Shown here: one piece after another, positions 571 through 60,193 of the stretch
Layout of the letters: every line of letters begins with the position of its first letter
Position numbering within the stretch: position 1 is the stretch's first letter
Source: Chitinophaga sp. MM2321
Lineage (GTDB): Bacteria; Bacteroidota; Bacteroidia; Chitinophagales; Chitinophagaceae
Direction of reading: 5' to 3'
Length of the DNA: 64,000 nt
Assembly (NCBI RefSeq): GCF_964033635.1
Contig: NZ_OZ035533.1
Coordinates: forward strand, 6,543,001 to 6,607,000
The notes under the pieces: model-generated
What the model saw: only the letters and a program-made list of their open reading frames with translations
What the model was told of the DNA's origin: nothing
The model's database searches: none
Translations under genes and position numbers: made by a program

Positions 571-1299
571 ATGAAAAAAGCATTGATAATAGATGATGAA
601 CGCCTAGCCAGGAGTGAACTGAAAAAATTGCTGGCAGATCACCCGGAAATTGTGGTGGTAGGAGAAGCTGTGAACGCGAAGGATGGTATAGAAAAGATAG
701 AAACACTGCATCCTGACCTCCTGTTCCTGGACATTCAGATGCCGGATAAAACCGGATTTGATCTGTTGGCAGAACTGGAAAAAACGCCACAGGTAATTTT
801 TACAACCGCATATGATGAATATGCGCTGAAAGCATTTGAGTACAATGCGCTGGACTACCTGTTAAAGCCGGTAGAACCTAAGCGTTTGGCCGATGCTATT
901 CACAAATTGCATCAGCAGGATGAAAAAGATCAGCTGGCTGCTGCCGGCGGTATCCGTACCCTGTTGTCTGAAAACGACCAGGTATTTGTGAAAGACGGAG
1001 ACCGTTGCTGGTTTGTGAAATTGCAGGAAATTCGCCTCTTTGAAAGCGTAGGCAACTATGCCCGGGTATATTTTGAAACCAATAAGCCACTCATTCTGAA
1101 GTCGCTTAATGCACTGGAAGAAAGACTGGACGAACGGGTATTTTTCCGTGCCAACAGAAAACATATTGTTAATCTGCGGATGATCGAAAAAATCGACACC
1201 TACTTCAATGGCGGTCTGTTATTGGAAATGCGTGGCGGTGAAAAAATTGAAGTGAGCCGCAGACAGGCGGTGAAGTTTAAAGAGATGATGAGCCTCTAA
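571..1299 (+). CDS. LytTR-family response regulator
   Basis: A 242-residue two-component regulator, partner of the preceding kinase. Residues 1-115 form a receiver domain with the acidic pair D8/D9, phospho-acceptor D54 (FLDIQMPD), T79 and K99 (LLKPVEP). Residues from about 137 form a LytTR DNA-binding domain (RCWFVKLQEIRLFESVGNYARVY, FFRANRKHIVNL). A TTG six bases upstream would add two residues, but the ATG at 571 matches the usual MKKALIIDDE start. No clear Shine-Dalgarno sequence is present, which is normal for Bacteroidota. The stop codon overlaps the left arm of a long hairpin. Targets are unknown. Confidence 0.93.
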   Translation: MKKALIIDDERLARSELKKLLADHPEIVVVGEAVNAKDGIEKIETLHPDLLFLDIQMPDKTGFDLLAELEKTPQVIFTTAYDEYALKAFEYNALDYLLKPVEPKRLADAIHKLHQQDEKDQLAAAGGIRTLLSENDQVFVKDGDRCWFVKLQEIRLFESVGNYARVYFETNKPLILKSLNALEERLDERVFFRANRKHIVNLRMIEKIDTYFNGGLLLEMRGGEKIEVSRRQAVKFKEMMSL

Positions 1300-1419
1300 A
1301 TATTTTGGGATTTTTTGATTTACGAATTTAGGGAATTGAAATGCAGCGAAGATCTACTAGATAACCTCTGCTGCATTTCAATTCCCTAAATTCGTAAATC
1401 AAAAAATCCCAAAATATTT
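1298..1419. repeat. Long perfect inverted repeat between convergent genes (family A, copy 1)
   Basis: Two 50-bp arms, 1298-1347 and 1370-1419, are exact reverse complements by base-by-base reading, with a 22-nt spacer. The element starts in the stop codon of the response regulator and ends one base before the stop codon of the convergent GGGP synthase gene, so it fills the whole intergenic space. A run of six T follows GGGA inside the arm. It probably acts as a bidirectional 3' hairpin, but the arms are far longer than an ordinary terminator. A close relative lies at 41776-41916. Confidence 0.95.
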
Positions 1420-2178
1420 TTATGCTTTTACTGGAACGGAATGTACGGCGTCCGCCAGTTCTTTGATGAGTGAGAGGTCGTTTTCGATGGCGTTTCCAAC
1501 TACAATAATGTCGGCGCCTGCTTTGCAGTTGAGGTATGCTTTTTCGGCATCCCGGATACCACCACCTACAATAATGGGTACATCTACCTGGCTGGCTACC
1601 CGGCTGATCATCGTTTCCGTGATCGGGATACGGGCACCGCTGCCGGCATCCATATAAATCACTTTCATGCCCAGCATCTCGCCTGCCATTGCTGTACACA
1701 TGGCAATATCTGCCTTATCTGATGGAATGGGAGTTGCATTACTGATATAGGATACGGTAGTGGGGGCACCACCATCTATCACCATATAACCGGTGGAGAT
1801 AACTTCCAGCTGACTTTTCTTTACGGCCGCAGCAGATACTACATGCTGACCTATCAATAACTCGGGGTTTCTACCGGAGATCATGGAAAGATAAAGCAAT
1901 GCATCAGCATACCGGGAGACCTGAGAAGGACTCCCCGGAAATAAAACTACGGGTATATTGCAGCTGGCTTTCAGCTGCTGCACACATTCATCAAGATGAT
2001 CGGTAATTACCAGGCTGCCTCCAAGGAAGATATAGTCTACTTTGGCGGCGATACATTTCGCAGCAAGCTCAATGATCCCGGCAGGGGTAACCTTATCCGG
2101 ATCAATCAAAACCGCGAATGCTTTTTCTTTCCTGGCCTTTCTTTCGATGAACGAAGTGTATATTTTATTGTACATCAA
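1420..2178 (-). CDS. Geranylgeranylglyceryl/heptaprenylglyceryl phosphate synthase (PcrB/GGGPS family)
   Basis: A 252-residue TIM-barrel prenyltransferase expected to join a polyprenyl diphosphate to sn-glycerol-1-phosphate, making an ether lipid precursor. Family marks are the N-terminal LIDPDK, FLGGSL, VLFPGSPSQVS, the central EVISTGYMVIDGG, and the C-terminal phosphate-binding IIVGGGIRDAEKA followed by GADIIVVGNAIE. Length fits the group II enzymes found in Bacteroidota. A second ATG directly follows the first, so the protein may be one residue shorter. The product and its use in bacteria with bacterial-type lipids are not settled; the polyprenyl chain length cannot be read from the sequence. 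Confidence 0.9.
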   Translation of the reverse strand: MMYNKIYTSFIERKARKEKAFAVLIDPDKVTPAGIIELAAKCIAAKVDYIFLGGSLVITDHLDECVQQLKASCNIPVVLFPGSPSQVSRYADALLYLSMISGRNPELLIGQHVVSAAAVKKSQLEVISTGYMVIDGGAPTTVSYISNATPIPSDKADIAMCTAMAGEMLGMKVIYMDAGSGARIPITETMISRVASQVDVPIIVGGGIRDAEKAYLNCKAGADIIVVGNAIENDLSLIKELADAVHSVPVKA

Positions 2179-2503
2179 TAGCGCATTGTTCCGGTTGTCG
2201 CAAATGTATAATATTTTTATTAATAACCCACATTGCTAAATAAATATGCATGCAATCCATTTTCTATTCATGAACTTCATGATACTTATTGCCTTATAAG
2301 TAACACTTACGGTTAAAGCTTTGTTAAAGGCAAATTTTGAGCCGGATTTATTTGTATCAGTTTGGTTTATAACAAATACGGTGGCAAACTGTTTGTGCAA
2401 TTATCCACAATCTGTGCATAATAAAACACCATTTCTCCGCGTATAAAAATTAATTTAGAAGACACCCGTTAAGAGTCATTAATCTAATCCTAAGAAAAAA
2501 TTC
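2179..2503. promoter_or_regulatory. Intergenic promoter region upstream of nrdJ
   Basis: This 325-bp AT-rich stretch separates the divergent GGGP synthase and nrdJ genes and should hold both promoters. It contains an inverted pair of DnaA boxes (2401-2421, listed separately). No convincing TAnnTTTG box and no cobalamin riboswitch pattern were seen, although the downstream enzyme needs adenosylcobalamin. Confidence 0.6.
2401..2421. promoter_or_regulatory. Inverted pair of consensus DnaA boxes upstream of nrdJ
   Basis: TTATCCACA (2401-2409) and, after three bases, TGTGCATAA (2413-2421), the reverse complement of TTATGCACA. Both match the DnaA box TTATnCACA exactly. They lie about 85 bp upstream of the nrdJ start. 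In Escherichia coli DnaA binds upstream of nrdAB and tunes dNTP supply to replication; a similar role here is inference. The near-palindrome could also be an NrdR-type or other operator. Confidence 0.55.
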
Positions 2504-5500
2504 ATGGGCATGAAAAATCCAGTCAATAATAAAAGTGGGCTCGCGTTTTCCCGTCATTTTACCAAGGAAGATGTGCGTCCGTATGAGCAGTTTGTATATG
2601 ATCTGCGTTCTTCAGTGATCCGTAATCCGGGTGGAGATATTGTATTTGAGATGAATAATGTGGAAGTACCGGAGGGATGGTCGCAAATAGCCACGGATAT
2701 CCTGGCGCAGAAGTATTTCCGCAAGGCGGGGGTGCCACAGGGAGATGGCAGCCTGGGCCGGGAAACGTCTGTAAAACAGGTGGTACACCGTATGGCTAAT
2801 TGCTGGCGTGCCTGGGGAGAGCGGTATGGTTACTTTGCTTCCGAGAAAGATGCACAGGTTTTTTATGAGGAGTTGAGCTATTGTATGCTTAACCAGGGCT
2901 GTGTACCAAATTCGCCGCAGTGGTTTAATTCCGGGTTATTTGAAAGCTATGGCATCAAAGGAAAACCACAGGGACATTACTATGTAGAACAAAATACCGG
3001 CAAGCTGGAGAAATCCACTTCAGCCTATGAGCGTCCCCAACCACATGCCTGCTTTATTCTGAGTGTGAATGACGACCTGGTGAATGATGGCGGTATCATG
3101 GATCTGTGGATGCGGGAAGCGCGCATCTTTAAATACGGCTCAGGCGTGGGTACCAATTTCTCCCATATCCGGGGAGATGGTGAAAAGCTGAGTGGCGGCG
3201 GTACTTCCAGCGGGCTCATGAGTTTCCTGCGGATCGGGGACCGGGCCGCGGCGGCCATTAAATCGGGTGGTACTACCCGCCGGGCGGCCAAAATGGTTTG
3301 CCTGGACCTGGACCATCCTGAAATCATGGAGTTCATCAACTGGAAGGTGGAGGAGGAAAAGAAAGTGGCGGCACTTATTGCTGCGGGCTATTCTGCCGAC
3401 TATGAAGGAGAAGCGTACAGAACCGTATCCGGACAAAATTCAAATAACTCCGTTCGTATCCCCAATAGTTTCTTTCACAAGCTGGCAGCAGACGGTGAGT
3501 GGGAATTAAAAGGGCGTACCAATGGCAAGACGATGAAAACGGTGAAGGCAAAGGAACTTTGGGAGCAGATAGCCTATGCTGCCTGGCGCTGTGCTGACCC
3601 CGGAACCCAGTTTGATACTACTATCAACGAGTGGCATACCTGTCCACAGGGAGGGCGTATTAATGCCTCTAATCCCTGTTCAGAGTATATGTTCCTGGAT
3701 AATACTGCCTGTAACCTGGCATCTGTCAATCTCCGCCGCTTTTTTGACGAGGAAAAGAACCTTTTTGATGTGGCCGGCTTCGAATACACAGTGCGGCTGT
3801 GGACGGTAGTACTGGAAATTTCCGTACTGATGGCCCAGTTCCCATCCAAAGAGGTGGCACAGCTGAGTTATGAATACCGCACCCTGGGGTTGGGATATGC
3901 CAACCTGGGCTCCATGCTGATGGTGAGCGGGATTCCTTATGACAGCGATGCCGCGCGGGGTATTACAGGAGCTATCACCGCTATCATGACGGGCGTAGCC
4001 TATAAAACATCAGCGGAAATGGCTGCCCACCTGGGTACTTTCCCCCGGTATGAAGAGAATAAGACCGATATGCTCCGGGTGATGCGGAATCACCGGGCAG
4101 CGGCCTATGATGCCACCGATGCCTATGAGGGGCTGGAAATAGCTCCCAGGGGAATTCATGCAAAATATTGCCCGGATTACCTGCTGAAAGCAGCTACCAG
4201 GGCCTGGGATGAGGCTGTACAATATGGTGAAAAGTATGGATACCGGAATGCGCAGGCAACGGTTATTGCGCCTACAGGGACTATCGGGCTGGTGATGGAT
4301 TGCGATACCACGGGTGTGGAACCGGATTTTGCGCTGGTGAAATTCAAGAAGCTGTCTGGAGGCGGTTATTTTAAGATCATTAACCAGTCTATTCCAACCG
4401 CATTAAAGAACCTGGGATACAAGACCAATGAAATAAAAGCTATTGTGGATTATGCCAAAGGTACCGGCAATTTTGCGGGCGCGCCTTATATTAATCACCA
4501 GTCGCTGAGTGAAAAAGGGTTTATTGCCGAAGAGCTGAAGAAGCTGGATACAGCGGTGGCATCTTCTTTTGATGTTTCCTTTGTATTTAATGTATACACC
4601 ATGGGAGAAGCCTGTTTGCAACGGCTGGGATTCACGCCGGAGCAGTATTTCAACCTGGAGTTCAGTTTACTGCATGCCCTTGGCTTCAATGATGAACAAA
4701 TAGAGGCGGCCAATGACTATATCTGTGGTACCATGACGGTAGAAGGGGCTCCTTATCTGCAGGACGCGCATTTGCCGGTATTTGACTGTGCTAACAGGTG
4801 TGGGAAGCATGGAGAAAGGTATATCCATCCTCATGGTCATATCAGGATGATGGCGGCGGCGCAGCCATTTATATCGGGTGCTATCTCCAAAACTATTAAT
4901 CTTCCCAATGAAGCAGCTGTGCATGAGATTGCAGATGCTTATCTGATGAGTTGGGAGCTGGGACTGAAAGCCTGTGCCCTTTACCGGGATGGCAGTAAGT
5001 TAAGCCAGCCTTTGAGCAATAAGAGTGACAAAAAGAAGCAAACAGATACCGTGGCAGCGGCTGCTACGCAGGCGCAGATCGTGGATCTGGATCAGTTAAC
5101 GATAGATGAGTTGCTGGAAGAAGTGAATAAACGCATGCTGGCCAGTAAGGATACGACCCTGAAACGTCAGCTTTCCCGTATTGTGGAAAGGCAGACTTTA
5201 CCTTCCAGGCGTACGGGCTTTACGCAAAAGGCCAAAGTAGGCGGACAGGCTATTTTCCTGCGTACGGGAGAATATAATGATGGTACGTTAGGTGAAATAT
5301 TCATAGATCTTGCCAAGGAAGGCTCTACGCTGCGGAGTTTGATGAACTGTTTTGCCATTGCTGTTTCTGTGGGATTGCAGTATGGAGTACCGCTGGAAGA
5401 GTTCGTGGATAAGTTTGTGTTTACCCGTTTTGAGCCGGCAGGTATGGTAGATCATCCGAATATTAAATCGGCAACTTCGTTGGTAGACTACATTTTCCGT

Positions 5501-5833
5501 GTGTTGGGGTATGAATATCTGGGCCGTACGGACCTGGTACATATCCTGGATGCGCCGGGAAATACGGGCGAAGAAGATCATGACCAGGAATCGGTCATTC
5601 CGCCGTTGTCCAGTGTGCGGGTCACCTATAAAGGGAATAATAATGCGGGTGAGGCCCCCAGGGCTGCAAAACAGCAAGCTGTAGCAGCACATAACCAGGA
5701 GCATGGAACACAGGACTATATGAGGAGTATGCAGAGCGATGCACCTGCTTGCAGCACTTGCGGACATATTACCGTACGATCGGGCACTTGTTACAAATGT
5801 TTGAATTGTGGCACCAGCATGGGTTGCAGCTGA
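2504..5833 (+). CDS. nrdJ: Adenosylcobalamin-dependent (class II) ribonucleoside reductase
   Basis: A 1109-residue vitamin B12-dependent ribonucleotide reductase that makes deoxyribonucleotides without oxygen-dependent radical generation. The barrel holds the redox cysteine C183 (PHACFILS) and the active-site trio in NPCSE, N390, C392 and E394. A TSCPD-type domain follows near residues 900-1010 ([32 protein letters not shown]). The C-terminus is cysteine rich ([16 protein letters not shown]) and should carry the shuttle cysteines that re-reduce the active site. Translation may start at 2504 or at the ATG two codons later (2510). It is monocistronic. No NrdA/NrdB genes occur in the window. Confidence 0.96.
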
Positions 5834-5904
5834 TTGCATGTTATAACTGTTGTTAATGATATGTTATTGTGCCCTTAAAATTTCAAAGAAAAATAACATG
5901 CCCT

Positions 5905-5912
5905 TACCTTTG
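5905..5912 (+). promoter_or_regulatory. Bacteroidota-type -7 element (TAnnTTTG)
   Basis: TACCTTTG matches the -7 consensus. No good TTG lies at the expected -33 distance. A strong intrinsic terminator begins about 38 bases downstream, so transcription from here would give an RNA of roughly 60 nt. Confidence 0.45.
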
Positions 5913-5918
5913 TATTCA

Positions 5919-5981
5919 AATAGGGTTTTCATAGGATAGTAACAAATTGAGGGTGCCTTTCTAGGCACCCTTACTTTTTAG
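5919..5981 (+). ncRNA. Candidate short RNA downstream of nrdJ
   Basis: A predicted start about 7 bases after the TACCTTTG box and an intrinsic terminator at 5950-5980 bound a noncoding unit of about 60 nt. It holds no start-to-stop reading frame of note. No known RNA family is recognised. It could be a small RNA, or only the nrdJ terminator with a chance promoter-like sequence. Confidence 0.35.
5950..5980 (+). terminator. Intrinsic terminator
   Basis: A 9-bp perfect stem (AGGGTGCCT, 5950-5958, with AGGCACCCT, 5963-5971), a four-base loop and a T-rich tail (TTTTT within 5974-5979). It would stop nrdJ read-through as well as the short transcript predicted from 5919. Confidence 0.85.
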
Positions 5982-6166
5982 CTAAAACCCGCTTTTTAAA
6001 ACCTCTCTTTTCTATCCTTTCTTTTCTCCCTGTATTCCATCGGGTGAGAGGTTGTTGATTTCTGTCTAAAAAAAATCAATTATTTTCTTCTTTTTCAAAT
6101 TAATCATTCGAATATTCGTATTTATTTAATTTTAAGGCAATTGCTATCGTCATTATATAATTTTAT

Positions 6167-6174
6167 TATATTTG
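6167..6174 (+). promoter_or_regulatory. Bacteroidota-type -7 element (TAnnTTTG)
   Basis: TATATTTG matches the -7 consensus; a TTG at 6141-6143 lies 23 bases upstream, slightly further than the usual 19-21. It would start the leader-ORF unit at 6209-6298. Confidence 0.5.
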
Positions 6175-6208
6175 TTATTGTATTAATTTTTATTATGGTT
6201 ACTGTCCT

Positions 6209-6256
6209 ATGAAAAACCAATTATTCCTACGCCGCGTGATTCATCATGCACTGTAA
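6209..6256 (+). CDS. 15-codon leader-like ORF
   Basis: ATG at 6209 opens a 15-codon frame, MKNQLFLRRVIHHAL, ending in TAA. It begins about 30 bases after a predicted transcription start and ends 10 bases before a strong intrinsic terminator (6267-6298). This arrangement of promoter, very short ORF and terminator resembles a transcription attenuator. Paired Arg and His codons lie near its end, but it lacks the long run of one amino acid seen in classic leaders. The downstream gene at 6453 is a secreted protein of unknown role. No family is recognised. Confidence 0.35.
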   Translation: MKNQLFLRRVIHHAL

Positions 6257-6266
6257 ATGACTCTCG

Positions 6267-6298
6267 AAAGCAATGGTTCGCCATTGCTTTTGTTTTTT
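6267..6298 (+). terminator. Intrinsic terminator or attenuator hairpin
   Basis: A perfect 10-bp stem (AAAGCAATGG with CCATTGCTTT), a TTCG loop and the tail TGTTTTTT. It directly follows the 15-codon ORF and lies 155 bp before the next gene. Confidence 0.85.
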
Positions 6299-6452
6299 CC
6301 CTCATTTGTATAATATCATCATATATTCCCCTAAATGCTATAGAGACTGCTGGTACTTTTCGTATTTTTTGTTAAAAGCTGAAAGGGAATAGTTAAAACC
6401 TGAAGAATTTCAAAATATAATTGTATTTTTAGACTCGAAAATTTGACGCCTT

Positions 6453-6953
6453 ATGAAAAAGCTGTTGTTCATGCTGTTGGTAGTTTTGGCCGCAGCCGCA
6501 TCAGCGAAAGCCAACACTGGTTTCAAGTATGGAGATAATAATGGGGATAAAAACGGGGACAACAACGATAACCGTAATAATGCCAAAAACAACGATAAGC
6601 CAAAGCCTGTAAGGGTAGAAGAGTTTGTTTTATTATTTCCAAGGGTAGAAACTGTAGAGAAAGTAGATGAAGCAGAGTTGGAAAAAGCTATTGTGGACCT
6701 GTATAAGTGGTATTTACAAAACGAAACTAAAATAAACACCAACGACTTCCTGAAAGGAGGTGGTAAGGAACTTGCTTTCCCTTTTAAAGTGGATCCAAAA
6801 ACCTTGCAACAATATTTCCTTTTCATCAAGAAAAATTTTCCGGGCTTCAGCGAGGACGATCTGTCTACCGTAAAACGCAACCGGAAGAAAGACGCACCTG
6901 TTACTGTGCGTGATGAAATGGATAATCCTATGTCGATTTCCGTTAACAGATAA
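6453..6953 (+). CDS. Secreted hypothetical protein with Asn/Asp-rich N-terminus
   Basis: A 166-residue protein of no recognised family. Residues 1-20 form a signal peptide (MKKLLFMLLVVLAAAASAKA), so it is exported. Residues 21-50 are a low-complexity linker rich in Asn, Asp, Gly and Lys (GDNNGDKNGDNNDNRNN). The rest is charged and probably folded (EEFVLLFPRVETVEKVDEAEL, then DLYKWYLQNETKINTNDFLKGG). The encoding DNA has a run of GATAATAAT-like triplets, which could expand or contract. It is followed 20 bp downstream by a membrane protein gene on the same strand. No function is proposed. Confidence 0.75.
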   Translation: MKKLLFMLLVVLAAAASAKANTGFKYGDNNGDKNGDNNDNRNNAKNNDKPKPVRVEEFVLLFPRVETVEKVDEAELEKAIVDLYKWYLQNETKINTNDFLKGGGKELAFPFKVDPKTLQQYFLFIKKNFPGFSEDDLSTVKRNRKKDAPVTVRDEMDNPMSISVNR

Positions 6954-6973
6954 AATCGTTTTGCCAGGCGCTG

Positions 6974-7450
6974 ATGCATTTAGAGTTTAGCTATAATAAG
7001 AGAGAGGTGTTGGATGCATTGCGCTATCATTTTATGCAGCGGGGCGAAATAAAAGTATTTCGTAACACGCTTATTATCCTCTTACTAGCCACCATAGCGG
7101 GATATGCCTTTAATATGGTGACCACCAACGCACTTACCGGTATCTCTTTCATGATATTGCTACTGGGTTGGGTATTCTGGTACCTGCTTCCCGTTTCCAT
7201 TTATAACAAAGCCGCTACATTTAAAGATGATATTCACCTGATGTATTCCGATGAAGGATTACTTATCTCCACCCGTGCCAGTGAACATCAACGTGCTATC
7301 AGCTGGAATAATTTTTCACGCGTGGTGGAAACCAAAAAATTCATCTTCCTCTACAGAGATAAAAAAACTTTCTTTCTTATCCCCACCAGTGCCTTTAAAA
7401 CAAGTGAGGCATATGATGCGTTTGCACAGATGCTTAAAGCCAAAATCTGA
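6974..7450 (+). CDS. YcxB-like membrane protein
   Basis: A 158-residue protein with two membrane segments at about residues 31-45 and 54-74, followed by a soluble C-terminal domain. The C-terminal stretch, with EGLLISTRASEHQRAISWNN and FIFLYRDKKTFFLIPTSAF, is typical of the YcxB-like domain, whose role is unknown. Start at 6974 is the first ATG in frame. It probably shares a transcript with the preceding secreted protein, 20 bp away. A symmetric terminator lies 60 bp after the stop. Confidence 0.7.
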   Translation: MHLEFSYNKREVLDALRYHFMQRGEIKVFRNTLIILLLATIAGYAFNMVTTNALTGISFMILLLGWVFWYLLPVSIYNKAATFKDDIHLMYSDEGLLISTRASEHQRAISWNNFSRVVETKKFIFLYRDKKTFFLIPTSAFKTSEAYDAFAQMLKAKI

Positions 7451-7495
7451 CCAGGATTGGCAGGATAGCCTGGATTAGCGGGATGGGTGTTGTAT
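7451..7495. repeat. Solo remnant related to the family B hairpin
   Basis: The stretch after the stop codon carries the words ACCAGGATT, GGCAGGAT, GGATTAGCGGGAT and GGGTG in the same order as in one arm of the perfect inverted repeat at 60033-60193. No matching second arm is present here. It looks like a decayed or half copy of that element. The match was made by eye. Confidence 0.45.
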
Positions 7496-7509
7496 GATAT
7501 TACCGGATA

Positions 7510-7542
7510 AAAAAAGCGCCTGCTATATGCAGGCGCTTTTTT
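7510..7542. terminator. Bidirectional intrinsic terminator
   Basis: GCGCCTGC (7516-7523) pairs with GCAGGCGC (7529-7536) around a five-base loop, flanked by a run of A on the left and T on the right. It sits between the convergent YcxB-like gene and the susD gene and should serve both strands. Confidence 0.92.
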
Positions 7543-7571
7543 AGTTGGTTTAGTTATAGTTGAGTGTTGTA

Positions 7572-9065: not shown

Positions 9066-9070
9066 AAAAT

Positions 9071-41744: not shown

Positions 41745-41777
41745 GCCCCTGCAATTTTTTGCGGGGGCCCGTTTTTA
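41745..41777 (+). terminator. Intrinsic terminator with no gene in front of it
   Basis: GCCCCTGCAA (41745-41754) pairs with TTGCGGGGGC (41759-41768), one G-U pair, TTTT loop, followed by CCGTTTTTA. It is oriented to stop plus-strand transcription, but no plus-strand gene ends here. It may end an unrecognised short RNA transcribed from within 41540-41740, where I see no clear promoter. It touches the left arm of the next hairpin. Confidence 0.75.
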
Positions 41778-41916
41778 TTTAGGGATTTTTTGATTTACGA
41801 ATTTAGGGATTTGAAATGCAGCGAAGATCTTCGCGTAAATCTCTACGTATTTTCAAACCGATCATCTCCGCTGCATTTCAAATCCCTAAATTCGTAAATC
41901 AAAAAATCCCTAAATA
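41776..41916. repeat. Long perfect inverted repeat (family A, copy 2)
   Basis: Arms 41776-41823 and 41869-41916 are 48 bp and exactly complementary, with a 45-nt spacer. The arm shares most of its sequence with the arm of the 1298-1419 element, including GGGATTTTTTGATTTACG and GCAGCGAAGATCT at the arm/loop border. The right arm ends one base before the cydB stop codon. Unlike the other copies it does not lie between two converging genes, because the gene on the left is also on the minus strand. Confidence 0.95.
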
Positions 41917-41917: not shown

Positions 41918-42952
41918 TTAATAACTCATATCCCCCAGTTTTACCTTGCCCCGGAAGGTCCAGAATACAAATATGCTGTAGCCAATTACCAGTGGTGTTC
42001 CGATGGCTGCAATGAGCAACATGATCTTTAGTGATTTGGTGGAAGAGGCAGCCTGGTAGATACTGATACTGTTTGCTGGATCTATGGTAGAAATGATGAT
42101 GTTGGGATAGAGTCCAACGGCAAACAGGATCAGGAGGCACGACATGATGATACAGGAATAGAAAAAGGCTGTGAAATATTTCCGTGCATCGATATTACGT
42201 TTGATATTGAGTAGTATGAGAACGGCCAGCAGCGGCAGTACGAACAGCTCCGGATGATTTTTGAACTGATGGGTCATATGTGGCACATAAATGAGTGTAG
42301 CCATTGACGTTAGTATGAAACACAGGATAAAAAACTTGCTGCAGTTGTTTACCAGGATAGTGAGTTTTGCATAGAGTCTGTTCTCCGTTTTCATCACCAG
42401 GTAAATGGCCCCGTGTAACATGAACAGGGACAAAGTAGTGAAAGAGATGAGGATTGCATAAGGATTAAAGAACGTGAGCAGTGTGCCGGTAAATTCATGT
42501 TCTTTATTCATGGGCAGTCCATGTATGAGATTGCCGAGTACCAGACCAAGCAGTAGTGTAATAGCCGTGCTGGATACGGTATAGCTGATATCCCACATTT
42601 TGCGCCACCATGGCCACGCTTCTTTACTGCGGAATTCTATCGAGATCGCCCGGAAAATAAGGGCTACCAGGAACAGCATAAAAGGAATATAAAAGGTAGA
42701 AAGGAGCACGCCGTATACCAGTGGGAAACCTGCAAACAGGGCGCCACCGGCTATTACCAGCCACACTTCATTTCCATCCCACACCGGGCCGATAGCGTTG
42801 AGTACCAGGCGGCGGCTTTCTTCTTTATTAAAAAATAAATGTAGGGATCCGGCGCCGAGGTCAAAACCATCGAGCACGCCGTAACCGGTGATCAGTCCGC
42901 CGATCACTAAAAACCACCAGGTGGGAAGATCCAGTCCGAGTATTGTTTCCAT
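41918..42952 (-). CDS. cydB: Cytochrome bd oxidase subunit II
   Basis: A 344-residue inner membrane protein with eight or nine membrane segments, partner of CydA in a quinol-oxidising terminal oxidase. The N-terminus (WWFLVIGGLITGYGVLDGFDLGAGSLHLF) and IGPVWDGNEVWLVIAGGALFAGFPLVYG are the diagnostic CydB motifs. It starts 11 bp after cydA. The stop codon touches a long hairpin. No small CydX-type ORF was recognised after it. Confidence 0.96.
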   Translation of the reverse strand: METILGLDLPTWWFLVIGGLITGYGVLDGFDLGAGSLHLFFNKEESRRLVLNAIGPVWDGNEVWLVIAGGALFAGFPLVYGVLLSTFYIPFMLFLVALIFRAISIEFRSKEAWPWWRKMWDISYTVSSTAITLLLGLVLGNLIHGLPMNKEHEFTGTLLTFFNPYAILISFTTLSLFMLHGAIYLVMKTENRLYAKLTILVNNCSKFFILCFILTSMATLIYVPHMTHQFKNHPELFVLPLLAVLILLNIKRNIDARKYFTAFFYSCIIMSCLLILFAVGLYPNIIISTIDPANSISIYQAASSTKSLKIMLLIAAIGTPLVIGYSIFVFWTFRGKVKLGDMSY

Positions 42953-52618: not shown

Positions 52619-52648
52619 TTGCGTGATACTGAATAGCAGATAAACCAA

Positions 52649-52669: not shown

Positions 52670-52693
52670 AGCAGCCATTAAAAATTAGCAGAG

Positions 52694-53311
52694 ATGTCTA
52701 CACTTTACAGATATGCGGATTACCTCACGCAGCCGATACCAGAAAGCTTCCCCAGCCCTGTCAGAAACAGGGAAAGAATTAATCCTTTGGCTACGGGTCA
52801 TTTTTTTCCTGAGTTTTTTGTAGAAGAAGAATGCATTATTAATGGCGCGGCTTTATTAGGTCATGTAAAACAAGGCATCTCCCTGCATCGCTTAACAGCA
52901 CAACCCCTGGTGGTTGCTTTTTATTCCGTCAACTGGAATGGTTATGGCGACAGGTTGCTGGAACAACTGTACGACAGTCATGCCGCGATAGAAGCGGCAG
53001 GCGCACGTTTGCTGGTGTTATCCAGTGAGAAGAAAAAACATTTTACTGCTTTCAATCCCCATCCGTTGCCGTTTGACGTAGCCTGGGATGCACAGCATCT
53101 CATTGCGCGGAAGGCAGGCATCTATAAGGAAACAGACCCGCTTTGGGGCCGTGTTTCCGGTGTTAATGCGGATGTTCCTACACCGGCAGTATTTCTTGTT
53201 ACGCCTTCGCTGGAAATTACTTATAGTTTTACAGACCAGTTCATGCAACAGGCATTTTCTCCTGAAGCCTTGCTGGCAGCAATAGAAAAGAAACTCGCCA
53301 TCAGTGCCTGA
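52694..53311 (+). CDS. Redoxin/AhpC-TSA-like protein lacking the peroxidatic cysteine
   Basis: A 205-residue thioredoxin-fold protein resembling the AhpC/TSA family: PLVVAFYSVNWNGYGDRLLEQLYDSHAAIEAAGARLLVLSS, then FDVAWDAQHLIARKAGIYKETDPLWGRVSGVN and TPAVFLVTPSLEITYSFTDQF. The active-site loop, which in peroxiredoxins holds the catalytic Cys after FY, reads SVNWNGYG without Cys. The only cysteine is C47, before the fold core. Peroxidase activity by the usual mechanism is therefore unlikely. The gene is divergent from bestrophin and stops one base before the convergent serine hydrolase gene. Confidence 0.75.
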   Translation: MSTLYRYADYLTQPIPESFPSPVRNRERINPLATGHFFPEFFVEEECIINGAALLGHVKQGISLHRLTAQPLVVAFYSVNWNGYGDRLLEQLYDSHAAIEAAGARLLVLSSEKKKHFTAFNPHPLPFDVAWDAQHLIARKAGIYKETDPLWGRVSGVNADVPTPAVFLVTPSLEITYSFTDQFMQQAFSPEALLAAIEKKLAISA

Positions 53312-54598
53312 TCAATCATTGATCGCCTGGTAAACAAGCACTTTATATTTATCGTTCAGTTCTCCATGTGAAGTGGGCCAGATATTTTTATAGATCAGGC
53401 CAATGATCTTTTCTTTTGGATCAGCCCAGTAAGTAGTGGAGAACATTCCTCCCCAACCGAAAACACCTGTTGGTGCTGGTGTGGCACCGCTGCTTTTATC
53501 ATTCACCACACTGAAGCCCAGCCCGAAATTATCTTTCGTATTCCAGCCGGTAGAGAGGTCGCCGGTTTGGTTCAGGGTCATTATCCGAACCGTATTGCGG
53601 CTTAGTATTCTTACATTGTTGTAGGTACCGCCATTCAGCATCATCTGTAAGAAGATTGCATAATCATACATCGTAGACGAAAGCCCGCCCCCACCTGAAA
53701 AATAAGTACCCTTACTTTCCGGATAGTTTGTATAAAATGTTTGCCCCTGCAACTCAATAGTGGACGGCATCTTCGAGATCTTATGCGTTTTTTGATCCTC
53801 GGTATACAGCGTGGCTAAACGCGATTGTTTTTCTTTTGGAAGATAAAAATAAGTGTCTTTCATCCCCAATGGATCAAAGATGCGCTCTTTCAGGAACTGG
53901 TCAAGGGGCTTGCCGGACAATACTTCTACCAGGTAACCCAATACATCGGTATTCAGGCCATAAGTCCATTTTTCGCCGGGATTATGCATCAATGGTAATC
54001 CGCCCAGTATTTTTATTTTATCTCCCAGTAAAAGATTATTGAGCCCGACACCAGCTACTATACCCGCTTTTCCGTACACAGCCACCGCCTGGGGACTGCC
54101 TATCTGTGCATAGCCCAGCCCGGAAGTATGCGTGAGCAGATCGCGGATTGTGATTTCGCGGGAAGCGGGTTCGGAAGTATAGGTAGTGTCCTTAAGATTG
54201 AATGTTTTTAGTACCCGGGGATGTGCAAATTCGGGAATGTATGCAGAGATCGGATCATCCAGCAGGAACTTACCTTCTTCATACAGCATCATCACGGCCA
54301 GGCTGGTAATCGCCTTTGTTTGGGAGGCAATGCGAAAGATGTTATCCGTTTTCTCCACTGTTTTTTTGGTAATGTCATCATATCCGAATGCCTTGTTGTA
54401 CACAATTTTTCCATCGCGTATAATCATGGCCGTTACACCATTGACATAGCCTTTGTCGATGTATTGCTGTACAACGGTATCTATACGGTTTAGTCTTTCA
54501 GCAGACATGCCCGCTTCTGCTGGCGTAGCAGTGCGTAGCACCTGTGCATCCGCTATTATGGTGGAGAGCAGGAATAGGGAGAAGAGCAGTTTTTTCAT
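53312..54598 (-). CDS. Class C beta-lactamase-like serine hydrolase
   Basis: A 428-residue exported hydrolase of the beta-lactamase/EstB family. Signal peptide residues 1-19 (MKKLLFSLFLLSTIIADAQ). The SxxK nucleophile motif is S92-Q-T-K95 in FRIASQTKAITSL; the catalytic tyrosine lies in WTYGLNTDVLGYLVEVLSG (Y213). The family includes esterases, D-aminopeptidases and penicillin-binding proteins, so resistance should not be assumed. The gene lies 16 bp downstream of an AraC-type gene on the same strand and may be co-transcribed. Confidence 0.9.
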   Translation of the reverse strand: MKKLLFSLFLLSTIIADAQVLRTATPAEAGMSAERLNRIDTVVQQYIDKGYVNGVTAMIIRDGKIVYNKAFGYDDITKKTVEKTDNIFRIASQTKAITSLAVMMLYEEGKFLLDDPISAYIPEFAHPRVLKTFNLKDTTYTSEPASREITIRDLLTHTSGLGYAQIGSPQAVAVYGKAGIVAGVGLNNLLLGDKIKILGGLPLMHNPGEKWTYGLNTDVLGYLVEVLSGKPLDQFLKERIFDPLGMKDTYFYLPKEKQSRLATLYTEDQKTHKISKMPSTIELQGQTFYTNYPESKGTYFSGGGGLSSTMYDYAIFLQMMLNGGTYNNVRILSRNTVRIMTLNQTGDLSTGWNTKDNFGLGFSVVNDKSSGATPAPTGVFGWGGMFSTTYWADPKEKIIGLIYKNIWPTSHGELNDKYKVLVYQAIND

Positions 54599-54613
54599 AT
54601 ACGTGATTCGTCA

Positions 54614-55498
54614 TTAAATAAATGTTCTTGTTCCTGAAGAAGTATACGCTAAACGAAACTCTTTAGGGGTGCAATCTTTTTTCTTTTTGAAGATACGATT
54701 GAAATTGGAAATATTATTGAAGCCGCATTTATAGGCGATTTCATTTACGGTGTTGGTTGTTTCTATGAGCAAACGGGAAGCGTGTCCCAGCCTGATTTCT
54801 ATCAGGGTGTCTACAAATGTTTTGCCGATCTTGGCTTTAAAGAAACGACTGAAAGCCACATCTGTCATGGCGGCCAGTTTAGCGGCTTCATTCAGCGAAA
54901 TGTTTTTATCGAAATTGGCATTGAGATAGGTCATGATCTTTTCCACGCGGCGGCTGTTGTAGGAGATGGTTTCCAGGTTGCGGAAAGTGGAATCGGAAAG
55001 GATGCGCAGGTTGCGGCTGATAGACAAGTCATGCAGGATAGACATCAGCTCCAGTACAGAATCGAAGCCTTGTTTATGCGGTAGTTGTACGAGTCGTGGA
55101 AGGATTTGCTGTGTGGTTTCCTTTGAAAAAAGAATGCCGCGCAGGGAACGTTCAAACATGTTTTTAATGAAATGCATCTGATTGCGTTGCAGGAACTTTT
55201 CATCAAACAGGTCGCGGTGAAACTGAATAGTGATCTCTTTGATGATGCCGCCGTCATGTTTGTTGGTAAACCAGCCGTGTTGCAGATTGGGGCCTACCAG
55301 TACCAGCTCCAGCGCCTCAATATCTTCCATATGATCACCTATAATACGCTTCGCACCTTTGGCATGCTGGATGAAGTTCAACTCAAATTCTTCGTGATAG
55401 TGCAGGGGGAAATCAAACTCCGTTTTCTCTCTTGAAAATAAGGTGAAGCAATCACTTTGTGTAAGTGGTGTGATCTCTCTTAATAACTTGCTCTCCAT
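54614..55498 (-). CDS. AraC-family transcriptional regulator with cupin sensor domain
   Basis: A 294-residue regulator with an N-terminal cupin (PLHYHEEFELNFIQHAKGAKRIIGDHMEDIEALELVLVGPNLQHGW) and two C-terminal helix-turn-helix units (ISLNEAAKLAAMTDVAFSRFFKAKIG; NTVNEIAYKCGFNNISNFNRIFKKKKDCTPKEFR). Such proteins in Bacteroidota often sense sugars. It precedes the serine hydrolase gene by 16 bp and is separated from the GH130 gene by a 774-bp region that may contain its target promoter. Confidence 0.92.
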   Translation of the reverse strand: MESKLLREITPLTQSDCFTLFSREKTEFDFPLHYHEEFELNFIQHAKGAKRIIGDHMEDIEALELVLVGPNLQHGWFTNKHDGGIIKEITIQFHRDLFDEKFLQRNQMHFIKNMFERSLRGILFSKETTQQILPRLVQLPHKQGFDSVLELMSILHDLSISRNLRILSDSTFRNLETISYNSRRVEKIMTYLNANFDKNISLNEAAKLAAMTDVAFSRFFKAKIGKTFVDTLIEIRLGHASRLLIETTNTVNEIAYKCGFNNISNFNRIFKKKKDCTPKEFRLAYTSSGTRTFI

Positions 55499-56272
55499 GT
55501 AACGTGGTTTGTAATATAACGCGGAATTATTTTATGGTGGGTCTATCCTTCTTGTCTTAATCACTTGTAAAATAGCGGATTAGGCTAAATTATCAGTTCT
55601 TTAAACCCTTATAAGGGCTAAAATAACATTATAAATTTAAACTACCGGCATAATAATGTAAGGGTAGTTCAAAAGGCTTGTAATGCTTGTTCTATAAGGG
55701 TTCATGCGTTGTGTTCTCCCGCATTTATATATCGGTTGTATTTTTTTTGATTATCAAAGTATAATCAATAGATAATAAAGTATTACATACTTGTTTAAAT
55801 AAAGGGCACTTTTGTATAGAATAAGCCCACGTTATGCATCAGTGTCCATCGTCATGGATGCGTATCATTTCTTTGACTTATTTACCAGCTTACATCTGTC
55901 GTCGCAGGACAACGGAATCAGCAACTTGTAAAAGATGACAAGCGTCGGAAAAGCGTTTTACATCTTGTACAGGTGGGCGCAGTGGTTTGGATGCGCAGAC
56001 TATTGCTTCCACTGTTACGATACCTAAGTAACAGTGCCGGCAGGTGTAAGAGCTGGATTTTTCTTCTGTAAATACTATCGTGACCGGATTATTTTAATTT
56101 TTGCCAGAGATGGACCGTTTGCGTTTTTTCATTCCACTTATCCGTTTTATTACTTTTTGCCGGTAGCTTATCTGTTTGTGCGCAGGGGGGAAATGCCTTG
56201 CGACAAACAGGCTACCAAACTGGATCATGCCTGGTTTGGAAAAGAAGTGTTTGCTGCACACTTATATAGATA
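55499..56272. other. 774-bp intergenic region between AraC-type and GH130 genes
   Basis: The left half is AT-rich with short direct repeats near 55740-55800 and should contain the AraC promoter. The right half contains a possible gene remnant (56090-56273, listed separately). No exact TAnnTTTG box, RNA gene or strong hairpin was seen. Confidence 0.5.
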
Positions 56273-56273
56273 A
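56034..56273 (+). pseudogene. Possible remnant of a secreted protein gene
   Basis: One frame opens at 56034 and runs 79 codons, its stop overlapping the GH130 start (TAATG), which suggests former translational coupling. A second frame across 56110-56170 encodes a typical signal peptide (LSVLLLFAGSLSVCAQG) that soon ends. Together they look like a frameshifted, shortened secreted protein gene. Neither frame matches a family I know, and chance cannot be excluded. Confidence 0.25.
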
Positions 56274-57460
56274 TGATATTGAACAGTAGTTATATGAACT
56301 TCGAAAAGAGAAAAAAGGTATTGCAGCAGGCACACGAAGAGCTGGCAGAACGGCTTAATTTAATGGAAACACCGGGCAATGGTATTTACGACAGGTATAC
56401 TTATCCTGTACTAACGGCAGCGCATACACCCTTATGCTGGCGGTATGATTTCAGGCAGCAGCATAATCCTTTCCTGATGGAGCGTTTCGGTATCAACGGC
56501 ATATTTAATGCGGGCGCTATCCGGCTCAATGGCAAATATATGCTGGTAGCGCGGGTGGAAGGGGCCGACCGGAAATCGTTTTTTGCGGTGGCGGAGAGTG
56601 AAAATGGAATCGACAATTTCCGTTTTCATGAACGGCCTGTTACCATGCCGGAAACGGCGGACCCGGATACCAACATTTATGATATGCGGGTGGTACAGCA
56701 TGAAGATGGCTGGATCTATGGATTGTTTTGCACTGAACGGCGGGACCCTGCGGCCAGCGCGGCAGACCAGTCGGCCGCTGTGGCGCAATGCGGCATCGCC
56801 CGCACCCGCGACCTGGTAAAGTGGGAACGCCTGCCGGACCTGCAAACACCTTCCGCACAGCAGCGTAATGTGGTATTGCATCCTGAGTTTGTAAACGGCA
56901 AGTACGCTTTTTATACCCGTCCCCAAGATGGTTTTATCAACACCGGCAGCGGCGGCGGCATTGGGTTTGGACTGGCCGATTCCATGGAAGCAGCCGTAGT
57001 AAAAACGGAAAATGTAATCGATGGCAAAGTATATCATACCGTGTATGAAGCCAAGAATGGCCTGGGACCTGCGCCTGTTAAAACAGCCAAAGGTTGGTTG
57101 CATCTGGCGCATGGTGTGCGCAACACCGCTGCCGGCCTGCGTTACGTGCTGTACCTGTTTATGACCGACCTGCATGATATCACTAAAGTAATTTATAAAC
57201 CCGCGGGCTATTTTATGGCGCCGGAAGGAGATGAACGGGTAGGCGATGTATCCAATGTGCTTTTCAGCAATGGCTGGATTGCTGATGAAGACGGGCGGGT
57301 GTTTATTTACTATGCTTCTTCAGATACACGCATGCATGTTGCTACGACTACAATAGACCGCCTGGTTGACTATATTATTAACACCGCCCCTGATGGTGGG
57401 CGTTCTGCTACATCCGTACAGGAGATTAACAGGATTATAGGAAATAATAACACGTTGTGA
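56273..57460 (+). CDS. GH130 4-O-beta-D-mannosyl-D-glucose phosphorylase
   Basis: A 395-residue cytoplasmic inverting phosphorylase that splits mannosyl-glucose with phosphate to mannose-1-phosphate and glucose, the last step in degrading beta-mannans. GH130 subfamily 1 features are clear: the five-bladed propeller start ([20 protein letters not shown]), [32 protein letters not shown], the catalytic Asp in TNIYDMRVV (D137) and [24 protein letters not shown]. Translation may start at 56273 or at ATG 56294, which puts the Asp at 130, closer to the known enzyme from Bacteroides fragilis. No mannanase or transporter gene adjoins it here. Confidence 0.92.
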
Positions 57461-57466
57461 ACCCGA

Positions 57467-57503
57467 AAAAGGATTGGTTCAAACCAATCCTTTTGACATT
57501 TTT
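57467..57503 (+). terminator. Intrinsic terminator of the GH130 gene
   Basis: AAAAGGATTGGTT (57467-57479) pairs with AACCAATCCTTTT (57482-57494); the tail is GACATTTTTTT. It starts seven bases after the GH130 stop codon. Confidence 0.9.
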
Positions 57504-57619
57504 TTACGCTCATTAACGGTCTGTTATAGTATGTACACTATACACGAACCGCCCTGTTTAAGCCACTTTCCCGCTAAAAATACTCACTAATAGGTATATG
57601 AAGGAATACTGCATTCATT

Positions 57620-57770
57620 TATCTTTGTTCCCTGATTTACAATAATCCGATACTATTTCATTTTATATAGCATTTGTCCACCCGGTATTTTTAATACTGT
57701 TCCGTAGACCAACATTTTTTTTACCCCCAAAAAAGGGTCTCATTCATCAGGAATGGGACCCTTCCTGTTT
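57620..57770 (+). ncRNA. Candidate noncoding unit (promoter-like box plus terminator)
   Basis: TATCTTTG (57620-57627) matches the TAnnTTTG -7 box but has no -33 partner. A strong terminator closes the unit: AGGGTCTCATTC (57734-57745) pairs with GAATGGGACCCT (57751-57762), one G-U pair, tail CCTGTTTTTTG. The predicted RNA is about 135 nt. No gene lies inside, and no RNA family is recognised. The terminator is convincing; the promoter is weak. Confidence 0.35.
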
Positions 57771-57776
57771 TTTGTA

Positions 57777-57784
57777 TACATTTG
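57777..57784 (+). promoter_or_regulatory. Bacteroidota-type -7 element for the LuxR-type gene
   Basis: TACATTTG matches TAnnTTTG, 65 bp before the start codon at 57849 and just after the preceding terminator. No clear -33 element. Confidence 0.5.
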
Positions 57785-57848
57785 TTCTTCGAGCGCATTA
57801 ATATCAGCCACTATTCAGATTATTTCCTATACATTTTTATAGCAGGAC

Positions 57849-58538
57849 ATGAGCATGTATTCCCTATTATCAGATCCCGTTGGGCTGGAGGGCAAATTAA
57901 AGGCCCTGCAAGCAATAGACGGAGAGTTACCGGCAGTTGTGATTGTAATGAATGTGGAGAAGGATTTTGTTGAGTATATGTCACCACGGGGCCTTGAGCA
58001 GCTTAATATTTCCCTGGACGCCCTGAAGGCAATGGGACACGGTTATTACGATACTTATTTCAATCCGCATGATGTGGCAGACTATCTGCCCAAAATAACT
58101 GCGATGCTGGGATCTCCCATTGATAAAGAAGTCATCGTTACTTTTTTTCAACAGGTGAGGTTATCACCTGAGCGCGATTGGGTTTGGCACCTGGGTACCA
58201 CCCGGGTATTTATGCGTAATGACGCGGGGATTCCTACCCATGTTATTACCTGTGCTGTTCCCATAGATCCTCTGCACCACGTTACCAGTAAGGTAAACAG
58301 GCTGTTGGAAGAGAATAATTTCCTTCGCCGCAACCAGCATATTTTTGCTTCCCTTACCAAAAGGGAGAAGGAAATTTTACGGTTGATGGCACTCGGATTA
58401 AGCGCCAGTGAAATTGCAGAAGAGGTACACATCTCCGAAAAAACAGCGGTAACACACCGTCGTAATATCAAAAGTAAAATCGGCGCGCAGTCGGGTTACG
58501 ATCTCACCAGTTTTGCACAGGCATTCGACCTGATTTGA
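57849..58538 (+). CDS. LuxR-type regulator with N-terminal PAS-like domain
   Basis: A 229-residue regulator. The N-terminal 140 residues look like a PAS-type sensor (VIVMNVEKDFVEYMSPRGLEQL; DWVWHLGTTRVFMRNDAGIPTHVITCAVPID). The C-terminus is a LuxR helix-turn-helix (LTKREKEILRLMALGLSASEIAEEVHISEKTAVTHRRNIKSKIG). Such proteins are frequent in Chitinophagaceae. It probably acts with the AraC-type gene that follows. The ATG at 57849 is followed two codons later by another ATG. Confidence 0.88.
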   Translation: MSMYSLLSDPVGLEGKLKALQAIDGELPAVVIVMNVEKDFVEYMSPRGLEQLNISLDALKAMGHGYYDTYFNPHDVADYLPKITAMLGSPIDKEVIVTFFQQVRLSPERDWVWHLGTTRVFMRNDAGIPTHVITCAVPIDPLHHVTSKVNRLLEENNFLRRNQHIFASLTKREKEILRLMALGLSASEIAEEVHISEKTAVTHRRNIKSKIGAQSGYDLTSFAQAFDLI

Positions 58539-58577
58539 TGCCCCCTTGTGCTGTTTTATCAGCATACGCATGTATCT

Positions 58578-58602
58578 TTATACCAACTGAAAAGTGGTAT
58601 AA
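58578..58602. promoter_or_regulatory. Inverted repeat at the start of the AraC-type gene
   Basis: TTATACCAACT (58578-58588) and AGTGGTATAA (58593-58602) pair with one bulged base. It ends one base before the preferred ATG at 58604. It may be an operator or an RNA hairpin covering the start codon. Confidence 0.45.
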
Positions 58603-58603
58603 A

Positions 58604-59506
58604 ATGGATGAACATAAAAGCCTGGTATATCATAATGGAACAATGGATTCTTCCGTCTGGTATTGTGATGATATCAAGATAGGACACGCTATATCCAGGT
58701 TCAACGAATTGTTTAGTTTCCCGGCCAGCAGTCCTACAGACGTTGTCCGGCTGCACTTTGGATTAAAGGGAGATTATATTTTTACGTATAAGCAGCTTAA
58801 CCGGTCATTTGATCTTATTGGCGGACATCACAACATCATGTACTCGAATGGGTTTGATATTGTGATCGAGAATAAAACGCTGGAAGTGGAAACGTTCGGT
58901 ATCCAGTTTCCGAAAGCACTTTTTATCAACTTCACGCAAAACGCCAACGATCAGCTGAAGCGGTTCTCCGAGCATATTATCAACGACACGCCCGCTATCC
59001 TTTCTGAAAAATGGGGCGCCGTGGACACGGCCATCCACCAGGTAATTTTGCAGATCATCCATTGCAAATATGCCGGTGATTTCAAGAAATTATTCCTGCT
59101 TTCCAAAAGTATAGAACTGCTGGTCATATCAGCAGAATCCTGTCAGGCAGCAGCCAGTAAGGAAGATCATTTCCTGAAGAATAAAACGGATAAGGAAAAG
59201 ATCATGGCTGTCAGGGATCTGCTGAACGAAAGATTGGACTGCCCTCCCAGCCTCTCTGAAATTGCCAGGACCGTAGGTCTGAATGAGTATAAACTTAAAC
59301 GCGGATTTAAAGAGAAATTCAATAACACTGTTTTTGGTTATCTCACAGACCAGCGGTTACAACTGGCGCACCAGTACCTGCGCGATACAGAAAAAACGGC
59401 CGCCGAAATATCCTTTGAGCTGGGCTATGCCACGCCGCAGCATTTCAATAATGCGTTTAAGAAGAAATTCGGTTTCACACCCTTTTCTGTTAGAAATAAT
59501 CCGTAA
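58604..59506 (+). CDS. AraC-family transcriptional regulator
   Basis: A protein of 300 residues if it starts at ATG 58604. The C-terminal AraC domain holds two helix-turn-helix units (CPPSLSEIARTVGLNEYKLKRGFKEKFN; KTAAEISFELGYATPQHFNNAFKKKFGFTPFSVR), like PchR/YesN-type regulators. The N-terminal 190 residues carry no recognised sensor domain. An ATG at 58538 overlaps the stop of the LuxR-type gene (TGATG) and would add 22 residues; the overlap suggests coupling, but the extension is not like family members. Confidence 0.88.
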   Translation: MDEHKSLVYHNGTMDSSVWYCDDIKIGHAISRFNELFSFPASSPTDVVRLHFGLKGDYIFTYKQLNRSFDLIGGHHNIMYSNGFDIVIENKTLEVETFGIQFPKALFINFTQNANDQLKRFSEHIINDTPAILSEKWGAVDTAIHQVILQIIHCKYAGDFKKLFLLSKSIELLVISAESCQAAASKEDHFLKNKTDKEKIMAVRDLLNERLDCPPSLSEIARTVGLNEYKLKRGFKEKFNNTVFGYLTDQRLQLAHQYLRDTEKTAAEISFELGYATPQHFNNAFKKKFGFTPFSVRNNP

Positions 59507-59592
59507 AGCGCAATCCGGTTGATGCCGCATCACCTATTTTTGTGCCGTAACCCGGTAAGGGAAGACATCTATCTTACTTAAAATATCAAAAA

Positions 59593-60045
59593 ATGAGCAC
59601 CCCGTTATTTGTAAAAAGCAGTATCACTATTCATGCACCGGCTTCTAAAGTCTGGGATGCTTTGGTAAATCCGGAACAGACAAAGAAGTATATGTTCGGA
59701 TGCGAAACCGTATCTGACTGGAAAAAGGGCAGCACCCTGCTCTGGAAACTGATGCATGAAGGGAAGGAACTGGTAGCCGTAAAAGGCACCATCGAAGCAA
59801 TCACACCAAACAAGCTGTTGGTATATACCACCATCGATCCCAATTCGGCTATTGACGACACTTCTGAAAACTACCTGCACGTAACCTATGATTTATCGGA
59901 GGAGAACGGGCACACTATTTTAAATGTCAGCCAGGGCGACTATACCCGCGTTGCGGAAGGAGAAAAAAGGTACCGGGAAGCCGTTGATGGCGGTGGCTGG
60001 GACCCGATACTGGTGAAGATTAAAGCATTGGTAGACCAGGATTAG
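59593..60045 (+). CDS. SRPBCC (AHSA1/START-like) domain protein
   Basis: A 150-residue protein made of one SRPBCC ligand-binding fold of the AHSA1 group (FVKSSITIHAPASKVWDALVNPEQTKKYMFGCETVSDWKKGSTLLWK; GGGWDPILVKIKALVDQD). These proteins bind hydrophobic ligands; no specific role is known. The last four codons lie inside the left arm of a 60-bp inverted repeat. The GGGW near the C-terminus is the usual ...GW..IL..LK motif. Confidence 0.88.
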   Translation: MSTPLFVKSSITIHAPASKVWDALVNPEQTKKYMFGCETVSDWKKGSTLLWKLMHEGKELVAVKGTIEAITPNKLLVYTTIDPNSAIDDTSENYLHVTYDLSEENGHTILNVSQGDYTRVAEGEKRYREAVDGGGWDPILVKIKALVDQD

Positions 60046-60193
60046 ATAGATTAGCGGGATTTGCAGGATGGGTGCACAAGATTGAAGCGAAGATGAACTG
60101 AGCGGATAATGTAATGTCATTCGTTTCAATCTTCTTCGCTTCAATCTTGTGCACCCATCCTGCAAATCCCGCTAATCTATCTAATCCTGGTCT
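60033..60193. repeat. Long perfect inverted repeat between convergent genes (family B)
   Basis: Arms 60033-60092 and 60134-60193 are 60 bp and exactly complementary, with a 41-nt spacer. The left arm includes the last four codons and stop of the SRPBCC gene; the right arm ends on the last base of the symporter stop codon. The sequence differs from family A, but both have a similar word at the arm/loop border (AGCGAAGAT). A half-like copy lies at 7451-7495. Confidence 0.95.

Follow-up and report, generated by a model that had tools for sequence, protein, structure and literature searches.

Long inverted repeats (IRs) in bacterial genomes can be set beside several described systems, summarized here from excerpts of the cited articles. 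Template switching homogenises the arms of IRs and inverts their spacers (PMC8604942), and it has been proposed as both creator and maintainer of RNA hairpins (PMC8794818). Bidirectional intrinsic terminators place a hairpin at the ends of convergent genes (PMC5381666). The YPAL/RU-2, ERIC and NEMIS/Correia elements are intergenic, 100-200 bp long, present in many copies and able to form long stem-loops (PMC2229807), and REP/BIME elements with RAYT (TnpA-REP) comprise many extragenic palindromes (PMC6006769). Here, we studied three long IRs in a 64-kb stretch of the genome of Chitinophaga sp. MM2321 (the window; contig NZ_OZ035533.1, positions 6,543,001 to 6,607,000), together with their kin elsewhere in this genome (G000; one contig, 6,778,472 bases) and in other members of this genus of soil bacteria. 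The 21 loci with the nearest relatives of one window protein all bear the label Chitinophaga, with C. solisilvae at 90%. With moderate confidence, we favour the reading that these palindromes occupy terminator slots, stay perfect because DNA is copied from one arm to the other, and probably act as 3'-end hairpins. No description of these elements was found in the titles and abstract beginnings of open-licence PubMed Central literature. As a natural system with many loci, and with relatives that differ at the same slots, they bear on the origin and upkeep of long perfect stems as well as on the evolutionary exchange of transcription-end hairpins.

The Chitinophaga IRs are like the products of template-switch and quasipalindrome correction (PMC8604942, PMC8794818) in their homogenised arms, multi-base mirrored changes and spacer inversion. 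However, the template-switch IRs known from those excerpts are mostly short and lie in coding or RNA genes, whereas the Chitinophaga IRs are long, bounded by stop codons and, by extrapolation, present at hundreds of gene ends. With bidirectional intrinsic terminators, as excerpted in PMC5381666, they share a hairpin at convergent gene ends, and ordinary terminators of this sort fill the same slot in some sister species; the Chitinophaga arms are 3-5 times longer, their T-tract is weaker and their sequence is common to many loci. Size, intergenic position, stem-loop structure and copy number recall YPAL/RU-2, ERIC and NEMIS/Correia, as do the YPAL targets near dyad symmetry. According to the excerpts of PMC2229807, the terminal pairing of those elements runs over 7-24 contiguous pairs and they come with target duplications; in the Chitinophaga IRs, 50-60 pairs are perfect, the outer ends lie at stop codons and no duplication was seen.

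All three IRs of the window had been picked out by the initial annotation, and they proved real, with small corrections to arm and spacer lengths. IR1 has 50-bp arms without mismatch (1298..1347 and 1370..1419) around a 22-nt spacer; its left arm begins within the TAA stop of a LytTR response-regulator gene, and its right arm terminates 1 nt before the stop codon of a PcrB gene. IR2 has 53-bp arms with one mismatch, one distal to cydB (41776..41828) and the other proximal to it (41864..41916) and 1 nt from the cydB stop, with a spacer of 35 nt; the 48-bp arm originally noted is the outer part of the full arm. IR3, first given as 60-bp arms and a 41-nt spacer, has 61-bp arms without mismatch (60033..60093 and 60133..60193) and a spacer of 39 nt; its left arm takes in the last codons and stop of an AHSA1-domain open reading frame (ORF), and its right arm overlaps the final base of the stop codon of a symporter gene. 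The arms of IR1 and IR3 are exactly complementary and those of IR2 have one mismatch over 53 bp; the boundaries at stop codons, the inclusion of coding sequence in IR3 and the filling by IR1 and IR3 of the whole gap between convergent genes stand as described. So do the two sequence families, A (IR1 and IR2) and B (IR3), which have the border word AGCGAAGAT in common.

To place these elements in the genome without favouring any sequence, we made a census of 80 evenly spaced 20-kb stretches of G000 (1.6 Mb), accepting any IR. In 62 IRs the arms reached 30 bp or more; 30 of these IRs are perfect and 20 have a single mismatch. Scaled to the whole genome, the 62 correspond to about 263 (Poisson range 201-337). 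By simple word rules, the 65 IRs of sample and window together divide into 38 of family A, 17 of family B, three of a third kind containing CCCCCGAAGGGGGAGG and seven others. Searched with IR1, the genome yielded at least 80 family A matches, at about 40 places and mostly on both strands (40 of 216 candidates scored), and with IR3 at least 32 family B matches (40 of 47 candidates scored). Arms can be identical over 52-53 bp at separate loci with unlike spacers, and the arms are internally periodic, with a period of 8 nt in A, 8-9 nt in B and 7 nt in 23 sister-species arms. Searches across 79 Chitinophaga genomes, in which at most 11 candidates were scored per genome and match counts are lower bounds, found family A in at least 19 genomes, family B in at least six and elements with the word GCAAAG in at least 23; within G031, GCAAAG elements at different places are up to 94% identical across about 156 nt. 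The third kind (L137:13640-13890, L204:19627-19836 and L208:7200-7413, all in G000) has arms of 36-59 bp and spacers of 96-138 nt, and its build resembles that of a miniature inverted-repeat transposable element (MITE).

Hairpins are generally hard to assemble, and an assembly or annotation artefact, or chance, might be suspected. We regard this as scarcely credible. The IRs occur in a one-contig genome and in independent assemblies of other species, some of them at orthologous places. A set of 21 Chitinophaga loci (481,132 bases) contains 14 IRs of at least 30 bp, and a set of 33 loci from outside the genus (472,773 bases) contains two. Five mononucleotide shuffles of the window gave no IR with arms of 14 bp or more, and the window itself holds only one such IR beyond the three, a 14-bp hairpin at 7510-7542.

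Position relative to genes, which for these counts were called by a longest-ORF rule rather than a gene finder, is strongly constrained. After exclusion of one family B and one third-kind IR at stretch ends, 63 IRs from the sample and window could be placed, and none lay between divergent genes or within a called ORF. The 51 A and B elements of the sample include 29 that stand between convergent genes (p 5e-9, relative to the proportion of intergenic bases). The distance from an outer end to a stop codon, for A and B elements in sample and window, has a median of 1 nt and is at most 15 nt for 77 of 85 ends and at most 5 nt for 49; ordinary hairpins have a median of 29 nt, with 36 and 15 of 143 inside these two limits. 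These counts bear out the earlier idea of a repeat family strongly biased to gene 3' ends. Convergent pairs with an IR (28 of 144) have a median gap of 120.5 nt, versus 63.5 nt for those without, and some genes use stop codons within the element (ATATTTAGGG in A, CAGGATTAG in B). Among 23 IRs of at least 30 bp from five sister species, 13 are co-directional with their neighbours, eight convergent, one inside an ORF and one divergent, the neighbour of the last being a 504-nt ORF that is possibly spurious. The boundaries at stop codons suggest where selection halts palindrome growth.

What occupies these slots in other species can be seen in 160 kb from each of five sister species (G013, G019, G031, G076 and G077): some slots there carry an ordinary hairpin, some an IR whose sequence is different, and some have neither one. 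Palindromes with GCAAAG (arms 25-48 bp) mark loci 2, 4 and 11 in G013, G031 and G076, and between the same genes G019 and G077 have ordinary hairpins of 12-17 bp; everything between the stop codon and the conserved flank downstream, or the following stop, is different. Three species share these IRs, and in those species the neighbouring genes have 87-96% identity to their G031 counterparts, so the recent formation offered earlier as one explanation of such flawless arms is not required. Across species, loci 6 and 8 have a core hairpin bordered by A- and T-rich sequence, and the outer arms vary. Over 14 loci, by our own count, an ordinary hairpin of 9 bp or more is present in 19 of the 36 alleles that lack a long IR (arms below 24 bp), and 18 of these 19 fall at nine loci. 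The palindrome words also vary by species (GCAAAG, ATTACGA, TTAGCT, GGATT). At the place equivalent to that of IR2, as judged by offset from the neighbour gene, C. niastensis has a 49-bp IR of different sequence and C. vietnamensis a 38-bp IR that is family A-like. An intergenic repeat family can switch identity between species at an unchanged position. Elsewhere in C. niastensis (L054:13384-13657), perfect 111-bp arms around a 52-nt spacer stand between convergent ORFs, with two word families in series.

The IRs form a GC-rich hairpin soon after the stop codon, as an intrinsic terminator does, and because they exchange with ordinary hairpins a 3'-end hairpin role, often bidirectional, is the most likely one on this comparative evidence. 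The bidirectional terminators proposed in the initial annotation accordingly survive in part: in relatives, an ordinary hairpin sits in the slot of many of the IRs, but the T-tract of the IRs is weaker than that of ordinary hairpins.

The arms of one element are more alike than those of different loci, with a mean identity of 98.9% in family A (n=52) and 97.0% in family B (n=16), against between-locus medians of 87% and 81%. We compared seven sets of orthologous IRs in ordered species pairs, so that each comparison is counted twice. Of the paired positions, 1141 were unchanged, 72 had changed on both sides and still paired, 53 had changed on one side, and six had changed on both sides and no longer paired; a further 18 were gapped on one side and four on both. 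Two spacer regions, too, are inverted. The 83-nt spacer of locus 11 aligns between G013 and G031 with 78 identities and no gap when inverted, and with 68 identities and 10 gaps when direct, and at locus 6 a 14-nt loop of the inner hairpin, found by eye, is inverted with 13 of 14 positions identical. Among 46 pairs of orthologous hairpins, at a score margin of at least 4, two prefer inversion, the second of them (G013/G019) weakly, and 41 the direct orientation. Mirrored arm changes and inverted spacers are signatures of template switching between arms, and the species comparison thus suggests that the two halves of a palindrome keep copying each other, in line with the arm-to-arm repair suggested at the outset.

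A different account of the same pairing would be selection on RNA alone, with long stems needed for termination, 3' protection or RNase III cutting and their pairing kept by compensatory mutation. The position at gene ends fits such selection, and ordinary terminators evolve by compensation, according to the excerpt of PMC5381666. Several results nevertheless make it very doubtful. Among the 72 compensated changes, 46 are of the transversion type; in an ordinary terminator conserved in five species, by contrast, each of the 12 is a transition. Point mutation and selection would not lead one to expect inverted spacers. The 21 mismatches of co-directional A and B elements, read in mRNA sense, include five G-T and nine A-C, and in these small numbers there is no sign that G-U pairing is preferred. 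Further, an intrinsic terminator needs less than a 50-60-bp stem.

Several observations weigh against our reading of self-copying palindromes at terminator slots. On the side of arm copying, IR detection itself favours matched arms within an element, which is why the orthologous IRs are the better test; there, loci 2 and 4 contribute 62 of the 72 compensated changes and loci 1, 3 and 11 none, 18 positions are gapped on one side, and the repetitive words make the alignment uncertain. On the side of termination, the best 8-nt window has five or more T at 34 of 61 family A ends and 8 of 24 family B ends; the corresponding figures are 100 of 143 at ordinary hairpins and 24% at randomly chosen intergenic places, so that family B is not far above background. 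With a T-tract this weak, other features may bring about termination, or the main role of the elements may be to protect 3' ends. As regards the slots, loci 1, 3, 14, 15 and 16 have an ordinary hairpin in only one of 17 IR-less alleles. Locus 16 has a terminator with one mismatch in all five species, missed by the count of hairpins of at least 9 bp, and the IRs of G013 and G076 stand just after this intact, conserved terminator, which looks like addition rather than replacement. At locus 3, the same ORFs are only 38-55 nt apart in three IR-less relatives, with no hairpin, and for that reason the IR may have grown inside an operon. The replacement of terminators by IRs is accordingly common, not universal. 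Finally, our reading does not account for the arrival of the same arm sequence at many loci. Two details of these loci may be added: the locus 16 IRs differ in both sequence and length between G013 and G076, and G031 has a 12-nt remnant-like TTCACGCGGGAA there; the locus 3 palindromes, of G031 and G077 (L251/L250 and L249 region), carry ATTACGA and lie between ORFs of 1086 and 3132 nt.

A rival reading is that of non-autonomous mobile palindromes, MITE- or YPAL-like: inserting at or beside terminator hairpins with an enzyme encoded elsewhere, they would owe their arm identity mainly to youth. Near-identical dispersed copies (the arms alike over 52-53 bp and the GCAAAG elements described above), presence and absence that vary among sister species, the intact terminator adjoining the locus 16 IRs, and the insertion of YPAL at or next to dyad symmetries reported in the excerpt of PMC2229807 are all in keeping with mobility. 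We consider it the most serious alternative, and still an unlikely one. Inspection by eye of loci 2, 4, 11 and 16 revealed no evident target-site duplication, the whole interval from stop to flank differs at loci 2, 4 and 11, spacers between identical arms can be unrelated, and mirrored changes and inverted spacers would require arm-to-arm exchange anyway. Profile searches of G000 found neither a Y1 transposase (PF01797, the one transposase family searched for, with matches in 5 of 14 control genomes) nor a reverse transcriptase (RVT_1; matches in 3 of the 14). On these results we reject mobilisation of the REP/RAYT type and copying by reverse transcriptase. The REP/BIME systems, as excerpted in PMC6006769, differ from the Chitinophaga elements in this missing Y1 transposase, and the Chitinophaga arms are far longer. 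The mobile or copied palindromes of the initial annotation are thus upheld as to dispersed copies and species-dependent presence, and lack the enzymes sought and visible target-site duplications. Ectopic copying between similar hairpins, or unrecognised mobile activity, possibly lies behind the dispersal.

If palindromes at terminator slots do copy their own arms, replication would meet the hairpin and the new strand would switch to the opposite arm as template. Such a switch would erase differences between the arms, could extend them outward and would sometimes flip the spacer. Coding sequence would stop the outward growth, which would be why the arms end at stop codons, and the hairpin would then terminate the transcript or shield its 3' end. 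A bolder proposal, which we put forward as speculation and think rather improbable, is a transposase-free repeat: seeded at terminator hairpins, growing to stop codons, perfecting itself and spreading by DNA polymerase template switching alone, most freely where the SbcCD hairpin nuclease is missing.

In E. coli, SbcCD cuts hairpins at long palindromes. No match to SbcD (TIGR00619) was found in G000, although 13 of 14 control genomes match, eight of them over the cut-off (SbcC was not searched). Among the 79 Chitinophaga genomes, 24 have SbcD over the cut-off, and all 10 with at least 20 family A matches lack it at that level. However, some SbcD-bearing genomes do have the repeats, with at least two family A matches in G001 and G030, at least seven in G035 and at least five in G069, and with at least 13 and at least eight GCAAAG matches in G012 and G064, respectively. 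SbcD carriers make up 2 of the 19 genomes with at least eight matches to any of the three queries, a threshold set after seeing the data, versus 22 of the 60 others (Fisher p 0.04, uncorrected for kinship). For the genomes behind loci L053-L073, SbcD exceeds the cut-off in 2 of 21, whose loci (L063 and L064) contain no IR that reaches 18 bp. SbcD absence is thus a weak and non-exclusive correlate, and SbcCD loss at most a contributing factor. One SbcD match (G008:C21:82609-83205) has an internal TAG stop and is perhaps a decaying gene.

The genes that border the window IRs were identified with Pfam. Upstream of IR1 is the LytTR response regulator (565..1299, + strand; Pfam PF00072 and PF04397), and converging on it is the PcrB-family gene (1420..2178, - strand; PF01884). 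The gene upstream of IR2 is cydB, for cytochrome bd subunit II (41918..42952, - strand; PF02322), and the gene after IR2 is co-directional with it. A hairpin resembling a terminator, with a + strand T-tract (41745-41768), adjoins IR2, although no + strand ORF of at least 100 aa ends just upstream. IR3 is preceded by the AHSA1-domain gene (59593..60045, + strand; PF08327) and faced by the sodium:solute symporter gene (60193..61824, - strand; PF00474); its left neighbour is not retained in relatives, which makes an empty-site comparison impossible for IR3. The window has no Rfam match at gathering score. The predicted RNA folding energies are -81.6, -88.6 and -134.1 kcal/mol for IR1, IR2 and IR3, with z-scores of -18.1, -18.2 and -22.0, and for each element none of 200 shuffles folded equally well.

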